In this document: one piece after another, positions 26,719 through 43,105 of the stretch
Layout: each line of letters opens with the position of its first letter
Position numbering within the stretch: position 1 is the stretch's first letter
Origin: Thermoplasmata archaeon
GTDB lineage: Archaea > Thermoplasmatota > Thermoplasmata > Thermoplasmatales > GCA-001856825
Assembly (NCBI GenBank): GCA_021827945.1
Contig: JAKATW010000045.1
Span: 1 to 43,105, forward strand
DNA length: 43,105 nt
Direction of reading: 5' to 3'
Notes under the pieces: model-generated
Told to the model about the DNA's origin: nothing
Databases searched by the model: none
What the model saw: the letters and a program-made list of their open reading frames with translations, nothing else
Position numbers and translations under genes: made by a program

Positions 26719-27366
26719 GTGAGTTTCTCATTATCGGGTATAATCGCATATCTCATACAAGAATCACTAGAACTAATGAGTACTCTCGGTCCTATCGGTG
26801 TATTCCTACTGATGGTCCTCGAGGGAGTAGGTCTACCTTTTCCATCAGAAGTTATAATGGTATTTGCGGGATTTCTGTCAACGGGCAATATAGGATTGTT
26901 CGTGATTTATGCCTTAGCAGGTTCAGTCGGTGGTTTCATTGGAAACCTAATACTTTACTACATAGCGGTATATGGTGGAAGACCGCTAATTCTGTTCATT
27001 GGGAAGTATTTTGGCATGAAAGAAGAACACCTCGTTAGAACCGAGAAGTGGTTTGACGCTAGAGGAGAGTGGACGGTGTTCTTTGGAAGATTTGTACCAG
27101 GATTCAGATCATATATGAGCATTCCAGCGGGGGTCTCTAAGATGAATGTGATCAAATTCTCAATATTTACATTCACTGGTTCTCTCATCTGGTCTACAGC
27201 TCTTGAAGCTGGAGGATATGTCCTCGGAAAATCGTGGGACACCTTGGTCCCGATAATTGAAAAGATTGGTATTATTCTGCTGGCTATATTCACTGGTGCC
27301 TTCATCATATACTTCATCTACAGGTGGTACCTCAAGAAAAAGAACTCAGAACCCGAGGCCCCTTAG
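26719..27366 (+). CDS. DedA/VTT family membrane protein
   Basis: This integral membrane protein belongs to the DedA (SNARE-associated, VTT) family, linked to lipid scrambling or undecaprenyl-type carrier recycling. Evidence is LEGVGLPFPSEVIMVFAGFL, the GSVGGFIGNLILYYIAVYGG segment with re-entrant character, and FFGRFVPGFRSYMSIPAGVSKMN, the family's F-G-R-F-x-P-x-x-R block. Four to five hydrophobic stretches and a basic C-terminus fit 215 aa. GTG 26719 has an AATTTAATA box about 30 nt upstream. In archaea the transported lipid is unknown. Confidence 0.92.
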   Translation: MSFSLSGIIAYLIQESLELMSTLGPIGVFLLMVLEGVGLPFPSEVIMVFAGFLSTGNIGLFVIYALAGSVGGFIGNLILYYIAVYGGRPLILFIGKYFGMKEEHLVRTEKWFDARGEWTVFFGRFVPGFRSYMSIPAGVSKMNVIKFSIFTFTGSLIWSTALEAGGYVLGKSWDTLVPIIEKIGIILLAIFTGAFIIYFIYRWYLKKKNSEPEAP

Positions 27367-27458
27367 GAAAAACACCAGAGGACTTAATGGAAGAGGTGAA
27401 CAACGCGGGTACTTCGAGGGCACCAACTTTGATGTGCCCTACTTTTGGCTTGCTTGGT

Positions 27459-28115
27459 CTATAATATCCCGAAAGAGATGAAAAAGTATCCTACCAGAAC
27501 TGCAGCGATTCCGAAAATGGTTACCCAGTACTTCTTGTTCCAAGCGAACACCTTGCTTCCATCAAGAGGTGGAATAGGGACTAGGTTAAAGAGTCCGAGC
27601 CAGAGGTTGATATACACTAGGAAGAATACGGCTGCGTAGAAACCAAATGGAAGAGATACGAACAGCAGAATCGGGAGAAGGGCTACACCCATCACTAGAT
27701 TTGCAATCGGACCAGCGACGGCAATCTTACCTTCCCTTATTGGATTTCTATAACTGGCAAAATATACTGCTCCGGGAAGTGCAAAGAGGAATCCAATGAG
27801 GCCCGTTATTATTGTAAGTACCAGTCCCATTGGCCACATTCTGAATTCAGACCACGCACCATAATGAATAGCGGTGAACTTATGACTCATCTCGTGAATC
27901 AAGAATGCAGTAATTGTCATAAGGAATCCAATTCCCAGTGCTGGAAGTAGTCCAAGTCTTATAGGCACCCCATTTACTCTGAATGAAGAGCGGTATATGA
28001 CAAGAAACAATGCAACAGAAAGAGTGATCACGGAAATTACGATATCTTGCAACTCTTTCTTGGAAAAGTTACTCTTCTTGTACGTAACGGTGTATGTGGC
28101 CATTCCCCCATGCAT
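27459..28115 (-). CDS. Site-2-type (M50) membrane metalloprotease, minimal form
   Basis: This 218-aa protein has five to six hydrophobic segments, the metal motif HEMSH on the second and the third ligand in PIPPLDGSKVF. It lacks the PDZ insert present in the other M50 gene of this window. The NPIREGKIAVAGPIANLVMG block is typical of the minimal archaeal/SpoIVFB-like group. Starts at ATG 28115 or 28103 (MATYTVTYKK) are possible. It is divergent from the MscS gene across 98 nt. Confidence 0.92.
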   Translation of the reverse strand: MHGGMATYTVTYKKSNFSKKELQDIVISVITLSVALFLVIYRSSFRVNGVPIRLGLLPALGIGFLMTITAFLIHEMSHKFTAIHYGAWSEFRMWPMGLVLTIITGLIGFLFALPGAVYFASYRNPIREGKIAVAGPIANLVMGVALLPILLFVSLPFGFYAAVFFLVYINLWLGLFNLVPIPPLDGSKVFAWNKKYWVTIFGIAAVLVGYFFISFGIL

Positions 28116-35770: not shown

Positions 35771-36278
35771 TGATTAAATACACGCCTAATTCAACAAAGC
35801 AGTAGCCTTTAACAAACTCTCTGAAAATAGTTCAACTCTTAACTTAATAATGACCATAAGAGTGCCCGTATTCGCAGTACTATGGCCAATTTTCAACCAT
35901 TTTCACACCATGTGGGAGATTTGCAACAAAAGTTTAACTCTGTACCGCCTAAATACCTCTACTATTCCAAAAACTTCGCGTTCCAATCGTAGAACTTATA
36001 GAGATTTTAAATGGTTTTTTAGGCTTGTATCTTCCGTAAACTTGGTTCTGACTCACGTTCTCCCCTCAGCACAGCAAAATTAACTTGAGTAATGGTTTCG
36101 GCCTACAGAATTGTTCAAAGTTTTGCATCAGTTTAGGAAAGTCATGCCATTTTGCAGGTTTAGCATTTGACCCAGAAATGTAAACCTGTTCCTGTCTGTA
36201 AAATCAGCTTTTGTTGGGGCAATTTTCTATAAAGGTTTCGGAAAGGAGGAGACTAGAAATCTTTGGAGATAAGTGAAT
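35771..36278. other. Gene-free interval with decayed minus-strand frames
   Basis: No intact gene is seen in about 500 bp. On the minus strand, 36207 down to 35950 reads mostly in one frame with two stops (KPAKWHDFPKLMQNFEQF, then VYGRYKPKKPFKISISS), which looks like a worn transposase N-terminus. This is suggestive only. It separates the DUF309 gene from the thermopsin cluster. Confidence 0.4.
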
Positions 36279-37757
36279 TTACTTCTTTAATCTCTTTGTA
36301 ACTGCCACTGAAATTACTATCGATATTACAATCGTTACCACCAATAAGACTATCACCGGCATATAGACTGTAGAAAATGCTGGAGGAGAAATACTTAGGG
36401 CCCCTCCTGGTTTGAGAATCACTGTGGTGTTCCACTGCGTAAGAATATCCAAGAAGCTCGTACTGACTCTGACGTGGTAGCTCCCTGGCCAAAGGGAGAG
36501 AGTGATCCTTCCGTTAACAAAACTGTAGGTTTCTTCCCCGATCGTGACTTTCCCTTGAGTTAGTAGACCTGATATGGTGAGAGATGAAGTATTCTCTTGG
36601 TCGTAAATTTCTGCAAGTTGGCCCTCTCCATTAGATAGCTCCACGAACAGTGAGCCGTTACTTGCAAAGTGTTCTGCAGAAACCGAAATGTTCGATATCG
36701 TTTCCAAGGTATCAGATCCAAAATCGAACGCGTTCCGAATCGCTTGAAGATTGTGTCCATTCCAAAAATCCAGTTGGAGGCTGACGTTCGAAGAAACGTC
36801 AGTTGTTGAATGGCCACTTCCTGGCCCTCCTAGGACTAGTTCAGCGTCGTAGTCTTGTCTAGCTGGAGTTTGTCCATTGCCATCGACTACGAATCCCCTG
36901 TCAGAGGTAGTGCGTGCAAATTTGAAAATTACCGTATCAAAAGTCTGCCATCCGTTGCCATCGCAGTACCTAAATGATACTTCAGGCTGGCCAGAGTGAG
37001 TCTCAAAAGAGGCGATCTCAAGGGAAAATGTAGTTGGGAAATTCAACTCTACTCCTGAACCTGGTAACTGAGAGTTGGCTGTGTAGTAGGAAACCGCATT
37101 ATTTGAACCAAAAATCGTGCCGTTTCCAGAGAGGGTTGAAACATAAATGTTACTGCCGGGCCAGGATGAATTCCAAATGTTGTTCAGGAACGAGACCTCA
37201 TTCGAGGTAGTTTGTAAGATTGCAATATCCTGTATCCAGTAATCATACTGCTTCCCCAAATTGTTGAAAACAAGTATTGTGTTCAATTGGAATTCCATGG
37301 AATTTCCCACAGATTTATTTCCTTGAGTCAAGAGAGAATTTATCATGACATTTCCCAAGAATTCGGGAGTTGAGTAGGAGTAAGTGCTAAAGGTTCCGGA
37401 CGAGATGGGAGTGCTTAAACCATAATCAACAATCCCCATTGGTGCGGGTTCCGATGTATAATAGAACAGCTTGCTTCCGCCAATTGGGTTACCCGCACTG
37501 GGAAAAGATGAATAAGAGTAAGGAGTCAAAGAAAAGTTAGCAAAGTAAGGTGCAGTCGAGCAATCTTCTGGGTATACCAAACTCGGCCAGAGAGTGGGAT
37601 TACTCAATGAAGATGTAGCATTATGGGAACTTCCAATTATAGAATAAGATCCGCTACTCCCGATATTTGTTGCAATCAGGATTATTGCCAAGAGAATCGC
37701 AACTCTTACAAAGAAAGAAGGCTTTTTCTTCTCAGTCCACGAGCCTAAGTTCTGCAT
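36279..37757 (-). CDS. Thermopsin-family acid protease, membrane-anchored
   Basis: This secreted pepstatin-insensitive-type acid endopeptidase belongs to family A5. The N-terminal segment VRVAILLAIILIAT (about residues 18-32) acts as signal or anchor. The mature start has the family box YYTSEPAPMGIVDYGL, FQLNTILVFNNLGKQYDYWIQDIA and FLNNIWNSSWPG. Many N-x-S/T sites point to surface glycosylation. A C-terminal helix (VYMPVIVLLVVTIVISIVISVAV) followed by KRLKK would hold it in the membrane, unlike the secreted Sulfolobus enzyme. At 492 aa it is longer than the prototype because of a C-terminal beta-rich extension. It is downstream of two other minus-strand genes of the same region. Confidence 0.88.
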   Translation of the reverse strand: MQNLGSWTEKKKPSFFVRVAILLAIILIATNIGSSGSYSIIGSSHNATSSLSNPTLWPSLVYPEDCSTAPYFANFSLTPYSYSSFPSAGNPIGGSKLFYYTSEPAPMGIVDYGLSTPISSGTFSTYSYSTPEFLGNVMINSLLTQGNKSVGNSMEFQLNTILVFNNLGKQYDYWIQDIAILQTTSNEVSFLNNIWNSSWPGSNIYVSTLSGNGTIFGSNNAVSYYTANSQLPGSGVELNFPTTFSLEIASFETHSGQPEVSFRYCDGNGWQTFDTVIFKFARTTSDRGFVVDGNGQTPARQDYDAELVLGGPGSGHSTTDVSSNVSLQLDFWNGHNLQAIRNAFDFGSDTLETISNISVSAEHFASNGSLFVELSNGEGQLAEIYDQENTSSLTISGLLTQGKVTIGEETYSFVNGRITLSLWPGSYHVRVSTSFLDILTQWNTTVILKPGGALSISPPAFSTVYMPVIVLLVVTIVISIVISVAVTKRLKK

Positions 37758-37808
37758 CTAAATCTTGCTAGGGTATAACTGCAGCTGTAGATACACAATC
37801 CCATTTCC

Positions 37809-38378
37809 TTAGATGTGAAGGGCTGTCATGGCGTTGATTTGATCTATAGCGACTTCAGACATATTTCCCTTGGGTGGCAAGGGGGATTGTCCAGTGACCT
37901 TGAAAACAAGGTCCCCTGAATATCCCCAGGCTCCCCAGTAATACGCTGTTCCGTAACTTTCATTGATTTCCTGCGGTTCAGTCGCGTAAGTGTAGTGGAA
38001 TCCATTATGGGTACCGTTTCCCGTATTGCCGATGTTCCCCCCAGTGAAAAGTCCAGCAAGCATCAGATAGGCTGTCACAGCCAACGTTGTGTTGTTGAAC
38101 TTGAGAATCTGGACTTGGAAGTTATAGTTAAAACCAGAACCAGTCGATTCGTTAAGGTAATAGATCTGCCACACTTTTGAACTTCCTAGGGTGAGGCCAC
38201 TGCCGTCATAGGTTGACAGAATTGACTGACTGTAGTTCTGACCAGACAATCCCTCTGCGACTCGCTCCGAAATGAATGCCACATGGGGCTCCTCTGAGAG
38301 TACGATGAAGGATACTGATGCTACGATAACCACTATAACCGCAACGGAAACAATCGAAACTAGTAATTTTCTCACCAT
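37809..38378 (-). CDS. Membrane-anchored secreted protein of unknown function
   Basis: The 189 residues begin with RKLLVSIVSVAVIVVIVASVSFIVL, a single signal anchor. The rest is an extracytoplasmic domain rich in Gly, Asn, Ser, Thr and Tyr with several N-glycosylation sites (NYS, NES, NTT, NGT, NMS). No family is recognised. ATG 38378 has GGGTGA 4 nt upstream, which decides it over TTG 38381. Thermopsin starts 51 nt after its stop and the Cys-rich gene ends 96 nt before its start, all on the minus strand. The extracellular composition matches the thermopsin neighbour. Confidence 0.8.
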   Translation of the reverse strand: MVRKLLVSIVSVAVIVVIVASVSFIVLSEEPHVAFISERVAEGLSGQNYSQSILSTYDGSGLTLGSSKVWQIYYLNESTGSGFNYNFQVQILKFNNTTLAVTAYLMLAGLFTGGNIGNTGNGTHNGFHYTYATEPQEINESYGTAYYWGAWGYSGDLVFKVTGQSPLPPKGNMSEVAIDQINAMTALHI

Positions 38379-38474
38379 CAATTCACCCAGACACGCTTAC
38401 CCTCCCGTTCTCTATGTATCACTCGAACAGCCAATTTTGAATGTGGTAAGATTTGGTCAGTTTGGCACATCTTA

Positions 38475-38834
38475 TCATCCATCGTAGTCGCAATGATAAT
38501 TCATACTTTCGCAACAAGCAACACAATTGGTAGTACTATTGCAATTATAATAGAGTGGATCATCTCCGCAAACATCATAATTGAAGTTGAAGCAGTTTGT
38601 TTGGCAGAAGTGGATGCAGGCCCCGTTTTCTGTTGGAATGCACGCACAGCAATACTTCCCATTACCACAAGTGCAAGGATACGTGACGCACTCTGGATTT
38701 TCAATCACAACTGTCCCACTCCGTTTTCCAGCTGCAATGTCAGCTTTGATAGCTTGATAAATTGCTTCTCTCACTTTATCCGGGATCGGAGGAATCTCCT
38801 TTCTCTTGATTGGATTTCCTCTGTCTGGATTCAT
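38475..38834 (-). CDS. Cysteine-rich protein with cysteine-free lead
   Basis: This is a 119-aa protein of unknown family with two clear parts. Residues 1-51 have no Cys and look helical (IPDKVREAIYQAIKADIAAGKRSGTVVIENPE). Residues 52-119 hold 15 cysteines, including two CC pairs, C-x-C pairs and many Asn/Tyr. There is no signal peptide or membrane segment. I choose ATG 38834 because a GATTATTATC box lies about 24 nt upstream on the minus strand, the leaderless pattern of this genome; an upstream in-frame start at 38900 lacks this support. A metal-binding or disulfide-knotted product, or a modified-peptide precursor with a leader, are all possible. Confidence 0.65.
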   Translation of the reverse strand: MNPDRGNPIKRKEIPPIPDKVREAIYQAIKADIAAGKRSGTVVIENPECVTYPCTCGNGKYCCACIPTENGACIHFCQTNCFNFNYDVCGDDPLYYNCNSTTNCVACCESMNYHCDYDG

Positions 38835-38961
38835 ATCAATCGAATTGTGGCTCGATAATAATCTTTTTTCATGAAACCAACTGTATTTCTTAATGGTCAA
38901 ACATTGGAATTTAAAGATTTGATTGGGTTGGTCGTTGAATTTGTGAGCACGGAATTAACCC

Positions 38962-39516
38962 ATGCACCATGTCAGAGAGGGATTGAAAGATATTGTCTAG
39001 GAAGCAACAGAAGGTGTGGGCAGGTACGACAGGTCATTGGTTGATCTTGTTTACGACCTTCTATATCCTGAGTTATTCAGGGATCGGAATGTTCTTCAGG
39101 AACGGATGAACAGAGCCAAGAGGGGAAGGCACTTCAAGGTGTTGGATATATTCGTAGTGTTCCTGGCTAAGATAAGGGCAATGTTCAACGCACTCTTCAG
39201 GACGATCGATGTTACAGGGAGGATGGCTTCGGGGATCCTGAACATTCCATGCATCTCCTATTCAAGGTTGTTGAGGAGGATCAGGAAGCTCAACCTAGCC
39301 ATCGACTCGTCCGGTATAAGGGAGGAAGGGGAAATGGATCCAAGAAAACCATCAGGGGCGATTATATCGGTGCCAGGTGGAAGAGGAGGGATGGTGGAGA
39401 GGCTTCATGCGATAGTCTCTATCTACGGAATAACTGCCCTGATACTCTACACAGCGGACGACCACGGAGGTGATGCTATGTACGGAAGGAAGATGCTAGA
39501 GCGCGTTTGGTGTTGA
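38962..39516 (+). pseudogene. DDE transposase N-terminal relic (IS5-like)
   Basis: Read from ATG 38962, an early TAG at 38998 breaks the frame. The long open part then shows YDRSLVDLVYDLLYPELF, a helical DNA-binding region, and AIDSSGI, the first catalytic Asp. After it the correct reading slips to another frame (GDYIGARWKRRDG) and back (ERLHAIVSIYG). Sequence ends before the second and third catalytic residues, where a different transposase fragment begins. It is clearly non-functional. Confidence 0.75.
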
Positions 39517-39875
39517 TGCTCCTGATGGACTAGTACTGAGGGTCAACAACGGTCCTCAGTATATATCACAGCAGTTCAGGAGTTCAATGAACCTGCTGGG
39601 AATCTCCCTGGAATACATCCAGAAGATCACCCCTGTAGACAATGGAACATATAATCATTCCACTCATCCCTAATAACGGATTATGCCTGGCCATTCGAAT
39701 TCTCAGATTACGGAGAAGCGTCAGCCGCAATAGAGAATGCATTCAAAGATTACAATGAGAATAGACCTTATTCGATTATCTTCCTCCAAGGGAGTTCAGG
39801 AGGAAGTTCCTAAATGATTTGTCATTCAGGGAGGGTTACACCAGGAAATTCAAGGTGAAAATGAATGAAAAATGA
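39500..39875 (+). pseudogene. IS3-family transposase C-terminal relic
   Basis: The integrase-core C-terminus is readable across three frames: FGVDAPDGLVLR then NNGPQYISQQFRSSMNLLGI and EYIQKITPVDNG, next SFHSSLITDYAWPFEFSDY and IENAFKDYNENRP, then LPPREFRRKFLNDLSF to a stop. The DNG Asp is changed to Asn (NNG), and frame breaks lie near 39650 and 39785. The relic is fused directly to the IS5-like fragment upstream, showing successive insertions and deletion next to a tRNA gene. Confidence 0.8.
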
Positions 39876-39933
39876 GGAAAAGTGTTACAACTCTAAGGGT
39901 AGCAGATCAGTCATAGTTAGTTTTGAATGATCT

Positions 39934-40020
39934 TGGCGCCGTGGGGGAGATTTGAACTCCCGATCTCGTGAGAGAACCAGATCTCAAGTCTGGCGCGTTA
40001 GGCCGCTTCGCTACCACGGC
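39934..40020 (-). tRNA. tRNA-Ser (anticodon UGA)
   Basis: A class II tRNA folds on the minus strand. The acceptor stem is GCCGTGG/CCACGGC with discriminator G and encoded CCA (39934-39936). The D-stem is GCG/CGC. The anticodon stem is CCAGA/TCTGG with loop CTTGAGA, giving anticodon UGA, which reads UCA. The long variable arm has stem TCTC/GAGA. The T-stem is GGGAG/CTCCC with TTCAAAT loop. G73 and the long variable arm identify serine. There is no intron. A TATATC box is about 25 nt upstream (40042-40047). Confidence 0.95.
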
Positions 40021-41608: not shown

Positions 41609-43105
41609 TTAGGCTAGCTTTCTACCGATCGATTTCTCGTAGTATGCTATTACCCGAGCCTTTTCCTCATCGGAGTACTTCCTGATGAATTTTTCTTCCT
41701 TCAGTGTCCTCCCTGTCTTCTCTTCGTAGGCTTTTGGCTCCATTGAGAATCTCCGCTGGGTTGCATCTCTGTATAGCTCCGGAATAACATTGAATGCGCA
41801 GAATGGTACCACTTTCCCGTCAGGCATTGCGTAGTGGATATCGCATCTCTCTACCCTGTCAACATCGTATGTGTAAGGATCCATGAAGTGCATGAATCCT
41901 ACGAACATTGAGTTGTAGTGGAATGCCTTTAGTCCATGGTAGTCTCCGCCCGTGAATGCTCCGAAGATCATCTCTCTCATCTTGAAGCCTTCAGGCGCCT
42001 TCGTCTCGTCCACGAATGTGTTGAGCTTCCTCAGGAGCGTCGTGAGCGCTGAAGCTTTCTTGAGCGACTTCACCCTCGACTCATTGATGTCAGCGGATAG
42101 CTCGTTAAGGTATTCGAATAGTCCCTCTACATCTATGAATTTCGTGACAGGAATAATCGACCCGTCTGGCTTCTTAAAAATGTATGTACCCATACCGCAA
42201 GCAAAGTGGATGCTCAGCCTGTAAGTTGGCTTACCCTTCAGAGCCTCTACGAAATTTGTGACTGCAGTTGTGCTTGGGACAGTGAAGAAGTCTTCCCTCC
42301 CGATAGCTCCATCTGTCTGAGCCTCTATCTTCTTGATGCAGCCAGGAATTGTGACTCTCTGTCTCTCCCTGAGCTTGTCCGGCATTCTTCCCACCAGAGA
42401 TACTGGTTGGAAGTTGACACTCCTGACCACGTCTAGGTTCGATAGACCAAACTTTATTATGTCTCCGAGCTCTCCGTCGTTCACTCCGCCAATTACTGTA
42501 GGGACAAGTACGACTCCTACATTGGCCTTCCTGTACGTATTGAGCGCTTCTGGTATTTCCCAGAAGTTCTTTGGGTTTGACCTTGGTGTTACCCCGTCGA
42601 AACTCGTGTAAATGACGTTTGATCCAGCATCTCGGCACTTCTGTACAAACTCGAGGTCTCTTGAAGCCCTTATGCTATTAGTGTTTAGCTGTACGTGCTC
42701 GTATCCTTCCTCTCTTGCGATCTTGATGATTTCTGGAAGATCATCCCTCATGGTCGGTTCTCCTCCCGTAAGCTGAACCGCATTGGCGCCAACAGGCTTT
42801 TCGTTCCTCATCCTTCTAAGCATCATTCTGATCTGGTCGTGAGTCGGCTCGTAAATAGGGTCATTTTCCTTCGCGTAAAAGAAACAGTACCAGCAGGATA
42901 AGTCGCATCTGTTTGTTAGAACGACGTTTCCGAGACCCGTATGGCTCTTGTGTTTGACGCAAAGACCGCAGTGTGTTGGGCAGTTTATTTTTTCTGCGGC
43001 TAGGCTGATCATCGGGTTCTCGAGTTTGATCCCCTTGTCCAGCCACTTCTTTGCCTTCATGTACATGTCATAGTCCTCCCAATACTTCTCCTTCGTGACT
43101 CCGTG
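41609..43105 (-). CDS. Radical SAM enzyme, tetraether-lipid-synthase-like (5' end beyond window)
   Basis: The frame is open to the right edge; ATG 43066 is internal and the upstream residues HGVTKEKYWEDYDMY continue the family's N-terminal zinc-ribbon region. Evidence is CPTHCGLCVKHKSHT, NRCDLSCWYCFFYA with the radical SAM CxxxCxxC cysteines, QLTGGEPTMRDD and the C-terminal cysteine box VERCDIHYAMPDGKVVPFCAFN. This architecture is that of the MJ0619-type enzymes shown to join two archaeol chains into tetraether lipids. Thermoplasmatales make tetraethers, so the role fits, but paralogues with other substrates exist. Confidence 0.85.
   Translation of the reverse strand, partial: HGVTKEKYWEDYDMYMKAKKWLDKGIKLENPMISLAAEKINCPTHCGLCVKHKSHTGLGNVVLTNRCDLSCWYCFFYAKENDPIYEPTHDQIRMMLRRMRNEKPVGANAVQLTGGEPTMRDDLPEIIKIAREEGYEHVQLNTNSIRASRDLEFVQKCRDAGSNVIYTSFDGVTPRSNPKNFWEIPEALNTYRKANVGVVLVPTVIGGVNDGELGDIIKFGLSNLDVVRSVNFQPVSLVGRMPDKLRERQRVTIPGCIKKIEAQTDGAIGREDFFTVPSTTAVTNFVEALKGKPTYRLSIHFACGMGTYIFKKPDGSIIPVTKFIDVEGLFEYLNELSADINESRVKSLKKASALTTLLRKLNTFVDETKAPEGFKMREMIFGAFTGGDYHGLKAFHYNSMFVGFMHFMDPYTYDVDRVERCDIHYAMPDGKVVPFCAFNVIPELYRDATQRRFSMEPKAYEEKTGRTLKEEKFIRKYSDEEKARVIAYYEKSIGRKLA

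Follow-up and report, generated by a model that had tools for sequence, protein, structure and literature searches.

The window analysed here, a stretch of 43,105 nucleotides, corresponds to contig C9 of the archaeal genome G000 (1.83 Mb, 87% complete), whose relatives are Thermoplasmata. Consistent with the first-pass annotation, it carries three consecutive genes on the same strand, with outer limits at positions 36279 and 38834. These genes and their surroundings are the following (window coordinates):

36279–37757, minus strand: thermopsin gene (A5 acid protease family), 492 aa, with an N-terminal signal/anchor and a C-terminal membrane helix
37809–38378, minus strand: gene of an anchored surface protein, 189 aa, with a predicted Mog1p/PsbP-like fold (model and Foldseek)
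38475–38834, minus strand: Cys-rich gene, 119 aa; residues 1–48 are Cys-free, residues 49–119 hold 15 Cys, 14 of them conserved; homologues on contigs G000:C45 and G076:C70
38835–38924, minus strand: candidate promoter upstream of the Cys-rich gene, AT-rich, with a TATA-like GATTATTAT some 25 nt ahead of the ATG (by eye)
39016–39840, plus strand: decayed, non-working transposase remnants (context), a DDE_Tnp_1_5-like ORF (39016–39516) and a frameshifted second piece
39934–40020, minus strand: tRNA-Ser (UGA; context), adjoining the module

The 119-aa product shows the organization initially described, a cysteine-free helical lead followed by a 15-cysteine body, as confirmed by its frame and by the positions of its cysteines (residues 49, 54, 56, 62, 63, 65, 73, 77, 81, 89, 98, 104, 107, 108 and 115). 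The leader contains an amphipathic helix (about residues 19–34) and lacks a hydrophobic export segment, the maximum hydropathy of any 19-residue leader window being 0.33. The 71-residue core is acidic (net −6) and includes CxC, CC and CCxC motifs. Since it holds 10 F/Y/W (about 14%) and a single Lys or Arg, its composition is disulfide-protein-like rather than metallothionein-like; metallothioneins have few or no aromatic residues in their Cys-dense chain. The cysteine density is above chance, with 15 cysteines in this frame versus 9 in the next best open 72-aa stretch over all frames of the window.

The frame itself is real, because 14 cysteine positions are kept in its homologues and the two G000 paralogues differ more at synonymous than at non-synonymous sites (dN/dS about 0.4 over the whole gene). 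The preferred start is the ATG at position 38834; a TTG start at 38900, taken from the ORF list, has no homologous support and was rejected, and the opposite-strand ORF at 38493–38858 (+) was regarded as a shadow of the gene. No family was matched by the protein in Pfam, NCBIfam or the protein data bank, the structure-database matches of the Cys-rich proteins to KP4 (E 2.6) and PrhC (E 0.03) being driven by composition and discarded. Its AlphaFold model (pLDDT 42.5) was too poor for a fold search.

Searches of over 600 genomes (overlapping sets of 117 from the order, 400 from the class, where two profiles were used, and 390 from the phylum) recovered only three copies of the Cys-rich gene in Thermoplasmatota: the window copy, a paralogue on contig C45 of the same genome, where paralogues were collected by sequence search, and a homologue on contig C70 of genome G076, which belongs to the same order but to a different family. 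Weaker matches of the Cys profile were obtained in G204, G276, G297, G415, G594, G636 and others; those that were opened proved to be ordinary proteins, reads in the wrong frame or frames broken by stops. The gene was not found in viral, plasmid or phage collections, and an origin from such elements was set aside for want of matches there. Homology of both G076 genes was assessed in a non-circular manner, by shuffles with fixed cysteines and by a profile excluding the G076 row. For the Cys-rich gene, none of 2,000 shuffles reached the observed alignment scores of 130 and 142, which makes its homology secure.

All three copies have 14 cysteine positions in common, and the G000 paralogues keep 14 of 15. 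The earlier annotation asked whether the lead is more conserved than the Cys body, and the answer differs with the comparison. Between the window copy and its C45 paralogue the leader is 50% identical, compared with 22% for the non-Cys core (Fisher p 0.006); against G076 the leader is no better kept than the core, while the cysteine framework persists. For this reason the constant element of the protein is its cysteine framework. Between the paralogues, NG86 dN/dS is nearly the same in the leader (0.37) and the whole core (0.38) and reaches about 1 in the non-Cys core, bearing in mind that one copy is a pseudogene, that synonymous sites are near saturation and that dropping conserved cysteines raises the value of the remaining core by construction.

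In all three known loci, spanning two families and with two loci in one genome, a homologue of the anchored gene directly follows the Cys-rich gene. On G000:C45 the Cys-rich copy (27646–27971, minus strand) precedes an anchored gene at 26988–27560 (minus strand). This Cys-rich copy is a pseudogene (L012, 13635–13972), its leader part being frameshifted and its core interrupted by an in-frame stop, and the anchored gene beside it is still open. Decay of an effector-like gene with retention of its partner would parallel, by analogy, the pattern of orphan immunity genes. In G076 the order is the same, the anchored homologue beginning 72 nt after the Cys-rich one and running into the contig end; it matches a profile built without G076 with an E of 1.7e-16. 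Because the pair recurs in a distant relative, the two proteins probably work together.

The thermopsin is not part of this conserved arrangement. The first-pass annotation took the three genes as a possible unit and named a check and a refuting condition that bear on this point. The trio does not stay together: no thermopsin stands at C45 or, C73 apart, at any further anchored-gene locus that was read, and the trio was abandoned as a unit. The refuting condition, that the Cys-rich gene should turn up away from the other two, holds for the thermopsin and not for the anchored gene. The conserved unit is composed of the Cys-rich and anchored genes only. Among the anchored-gene loci read, a thermopsin follows the anchored gene only in G000, at the window locus and on C73, where a third anchored gene that the start of the contig truncates precedes a second 492-aa thermopsin; the G076 contig ends before the position where a thermopsin could show. 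The window protein (36279–37757) is a plain member of the thermopsin family (PF05317, MEROPS A5), matching profile positions 7–256 of 256 with an E of 6e-77 and 259 bits against a gathering cut-off of 25. With 10 sequons and hydrophobic segments at both ends it bears out its description as a membrane-tethered thermopsin, and differs from the family in being a short form with a C-terminal tether. Three of the other four G000 thermopsins are longer frames. The thermopsin is a local passenger of the pair or, at most, a protease that would serve for maturation or clearing in G000 alone.

The 189-aa protein had been described as signal-anchored and glycosylatable, and it does have an N-terminal hydrophobic anchor and 7 N-x-S/T sequons; it contains no cysteine. 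It has no Pfam or NCBIfam match, and the best hit of a profile search of the protein data bank (E 0.31) was to unrelated chains. The lack of Pfam and NCBIfam matches for both it and the Cys-rich protein agrees with the early impression that neither belongs to a named family. Its AlphaFold model, built from a 33-sequence alignment (pLDDT 87.8), shows a single N-terminal membrane helix followed by an α/β sandwich. The top Foldseek matches of this model are PknH_C, PsbP, TiME, LpqN, DcrB, Eag chaperones, Tsi3 and 3hlz (best E 1.7e-3, probability near 1), with TM values of about 0.5 to PknH_C and TiME and ~0.3–0.4 to Tsi3. The predicted structure class is thus a Mog1p/PsbP-like fold, shared by the outer domain of the protein with PknH_C, PsbP, TiME, LpqN, DcrB and the Eag/DUF1795 proteins, from which it differs by its low identity (about 10%), its lack of cysteine, its archaeal origin and the absence of a Pfam or NCBIfam match. 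As modelled, such a fold speaks for an extracellular role in binding or as an adaptor and does not point to any one function.

Members of the anchored family occur in 48 of 400 Thermoplasmata genomes, mostly in unrelated gene contexts; some genomes have three to five copies, that of the window five. The family (180–210 aa) is a widespread surface family without a name. Since only G000 and G076 have the Cys-rich gene while the anchored family is widespread, the former is a rare passenger, so far always accompanied by a gene of this common family of surface proteins. After the anchored gene on G000:C23 lies a second small unnamed secreted-type protein (L014, 5722–6315, minus strand). A tree of the family places the G076 partner apart from the window's copies (AU p 0.033), with the reservation that its row is truncated and its branch very long.

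The flanks of the pair show several features of expression and context. GGGTGA stands before the ATG of the anchored gene at 38378, and a putative ribosome-binding site, GGTGA, is seen ahead of the anchored genes of both C9 and C45; at C45 a TATA-like AT-rich stretch lies right before the ATG of the Cys-rich gene (by eye). The TATA-like stretch before the C45 Cys-rich ATG, together with GGTGA before the anchored genes, would fit the Cys-rich gene being the first in an operon. A sigma-70 promoter scan was set aside as that model is unsuited to an archaeon. The transposase remnants and the tRNA-Ser gene listed above lie upstream of the module, and the second remnant has a 78% copy on contig C123, matched over window positions 39488–39909. 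The tRNA-Ser and transposase remnants beside the module may mark an insertion hot spot. An integrated element with an attachment repeat at the tRNA-Ser was considered and rejected, the sole shared word being 10 nt long (35914–35923) and at chance level.

In G076, the Cys-rich homologue overlaps at its start with a gene for a DCC1-like thiol-disulfide oxidoreductase (G076:C70; L054, 7702–8172). The product of this gene matches PF04134 below the cut-off (E 5e-4) and has a hydrophobic stretch at its C-terminal end. This overlap favours disulfide chemistry for the Cys-rich protein. DCC1 was not found in the genome of the window, and for that reason it was dismissed as a constant partner of the module. 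The region upstream of the DCC1-like gene resembles a leaderless promoter. A TnpB-like fragment lies upstream of the G076 Cys-rich homologue, and the same contig also encodes a 287-aa Cys-containing protein without a Pfam match (L054, 2979–3842, minus strand).

Fixed cysteines among varying non-Cys residues, rarity, decay and mobile-element remnants are best accounted for by a disulfide-rich effector and a cognate surface partner. We therefore favour, with a probability of roughly one in three, a rare accessory two-gene antagonism module composed of a bacteriocin-like Cys-rich effector and its surface immunity or adaptor protein. In such a module the product of the first gene would be a small protein built on a framework of 14 cysteines, with an N-terminal leader that is helical, has no signal and would keep the protein inactive or guide its export. 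Once oxidised, the protein would become a disulfide-rich miniprotein suited to strong acid, would leave the cell and might then act on competitors. The second gene would provide a membrane-anchored, outward-facing Mog1p/PsbP-like domain that may bind or neutralise the Cys-rich protein at the surface of the producer. The accessory nature of the module is consistent with the rarity of the Cys-rich gene, its decayed copy, the IS remnants and the nearby tRNA. Against antagonism stand the lack of any secretion signal, transporter, processing site or maturation enzyme among the features seen, the small number of loci (three, two of them in one genome), the failure of the G076 partner to group with the window's copies in the tree, and a whole-core dN/dS that equals that of the leader once cysteines are included. 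The anchored family must also have other roles, being widespread without the Cys-rich gene, and its fold serves many functions, which counts against inferring a single role. The more specific proposal of a new antagonism system of hyperacidic habitats, in which an acidic knotted 14-cysteine miniprotein without a classical signal undergoes a leader-dependent export and is counteracted by an anchored Mog1p/PsbP-like immunity protein, is doubtful.

Some of the same observations can be read differently. The sensor and envelope domains closest in fold to the partner (the PknH extracellular domain, PsbP, DcrB and LpqN), and the spread of its family through diverse contexts as a general surface protein, would suit a non-toxic pair in which an exported, disulfide-bonded Cys-rich protein docks on the anchored protein and serves in the envelope, in adhesion or in sensing. 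This is a tentative possibility, as a gene that is rare, has a decayed copy and is free to vary in its loops resembles a fast-evolving accessory gene more than it does an envelope component, and an export signal is absent here too. If the Cys-rich protein instead stayed in the cytosol as a buffer that binds metal ions or stores reducing equivalents, the anchored gene being merely co-transcribed, the missing secretion signal, the CxC, CC and CCxC motifs and the adjoining thiol oxidoreductase gene of G076 would all find an explanation. The aromatic-rich, acidic core and the spaced 14-Cys framework with variable loops are unlike metallothioneins, and the pairing with an extracellular-facing protein at every locus speaks against a cytosolic role, which makes a buffer distinctly unlikely.

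The remaining explanations are weaker still. The Cys-rich protein might be an inhibitor or a substrate of the adjacent thermopsin, in the manner of knottin-type inhibitors, given the proximity of the two genes in the window, the second anchored-protein and thermopsin pair on C73, and a spacing in two Cys-rich homologues ('C..SDSDC..C') that we take to be knottin-like; a protease-centred system nevertheless has little likelihood, since the thermopsin is missing from C45 and from all other anchored-gene loci read. Archaeal RiPP clusters have been predicted to be common, including in Thermoplasmatota, the phylum of the Thermoplasmata (PMC12144867), and the conservation of the leader over a variable core between paralogues would suit a modified peptide whose leader recruits an unlinked enzyme and whose core is cross-linked by non-disulfide chemistry. 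The first-pass annotation saw no maturation enzyme or exporter next to the genes, and a Pfam scan of 30 ORFs of the window likewise found none; among the Pfam-scanned ORFs of the window, C45 and G076 loci, none encodes the nearby modifying enzyme characteristic of RiPPs, the DCC1-like protein of G076 being an oxidoreductase. With a leader poorly conserved in G076 as well, a RiPP is very improbable. The slimmest chance is given to unrelated neighbours without a joint function: the sample is small, each gene could have its own start signal and the thermopsin is clearly separable, but the same two genes stand in the same order in three of three loci from two families.

The nearest functional analogy to the favoured effector and immunity pair is provided by halocin C8-type bacteriocins with their immunity protein, likewise archaeal and likewise a Cys-rich peptide core encoded with a partner. 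In halocin C8, which has a Tat signal, peptide and immunity protein come from one and the same precursor; the Cys-rich gene studied here encodes no signal, and its partner is an anchored protein with a gene of its own. No sequence match was found in the family libraries, and neither the leader nor the genes adjoining the pair supply a secretion signal or an exporter; the linkage of effector and partner is seen at each of the three loci in both families. By analogy, the Cys-rich protein may work like a halocin-type bacteriocin despite the absent signal. Its acidic core is unlike typical cationic antimicrobial peptides. With knottins and other disulfide-rich miniproteins it shares a small core, dense fixed cysteines and variable loops, together with the 'SDSDC' turn of two homologues; it differs in having no signal peptide, and neither Cys-rich homologue has a Pfam match or a meaningful sequence match in the protein data bank.

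The partner invites a second comparison. Tsi3 is a cognate immunity protein whose reported structural neighbours are 3hlz (the nearest by DALI), Mog1p and PsbP (PMC3792639). Its fold is similar to that of the anchored protein by Foldseek, and its immunity function is exerted outside the cytosol. The Tse3–Tsi3 pair differs in its effector, Tse3 being a large muramidase that a type VI secretion system delivers, and sequence similarity is absent.

To our knowledge, very few archaeal peptide weapons have been described, and we know of none characterised from Thermoplasmatales. If the favoured reading is true, the locus offers a testable antagonism pair of acid communities and a new family of disulfide-rich miniproteins, and raises the question of how archaea export proteins without a signal sequence. 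Should it prove not to be a weapon, the pair still defines two families that lack a name, of which one is common throughout the class. Elsewhere in the window, a radical SAM gene (41609–43066, minus strand) matched the general radical-SAM family only; its product presumably resembles tetraether lipid synthase.
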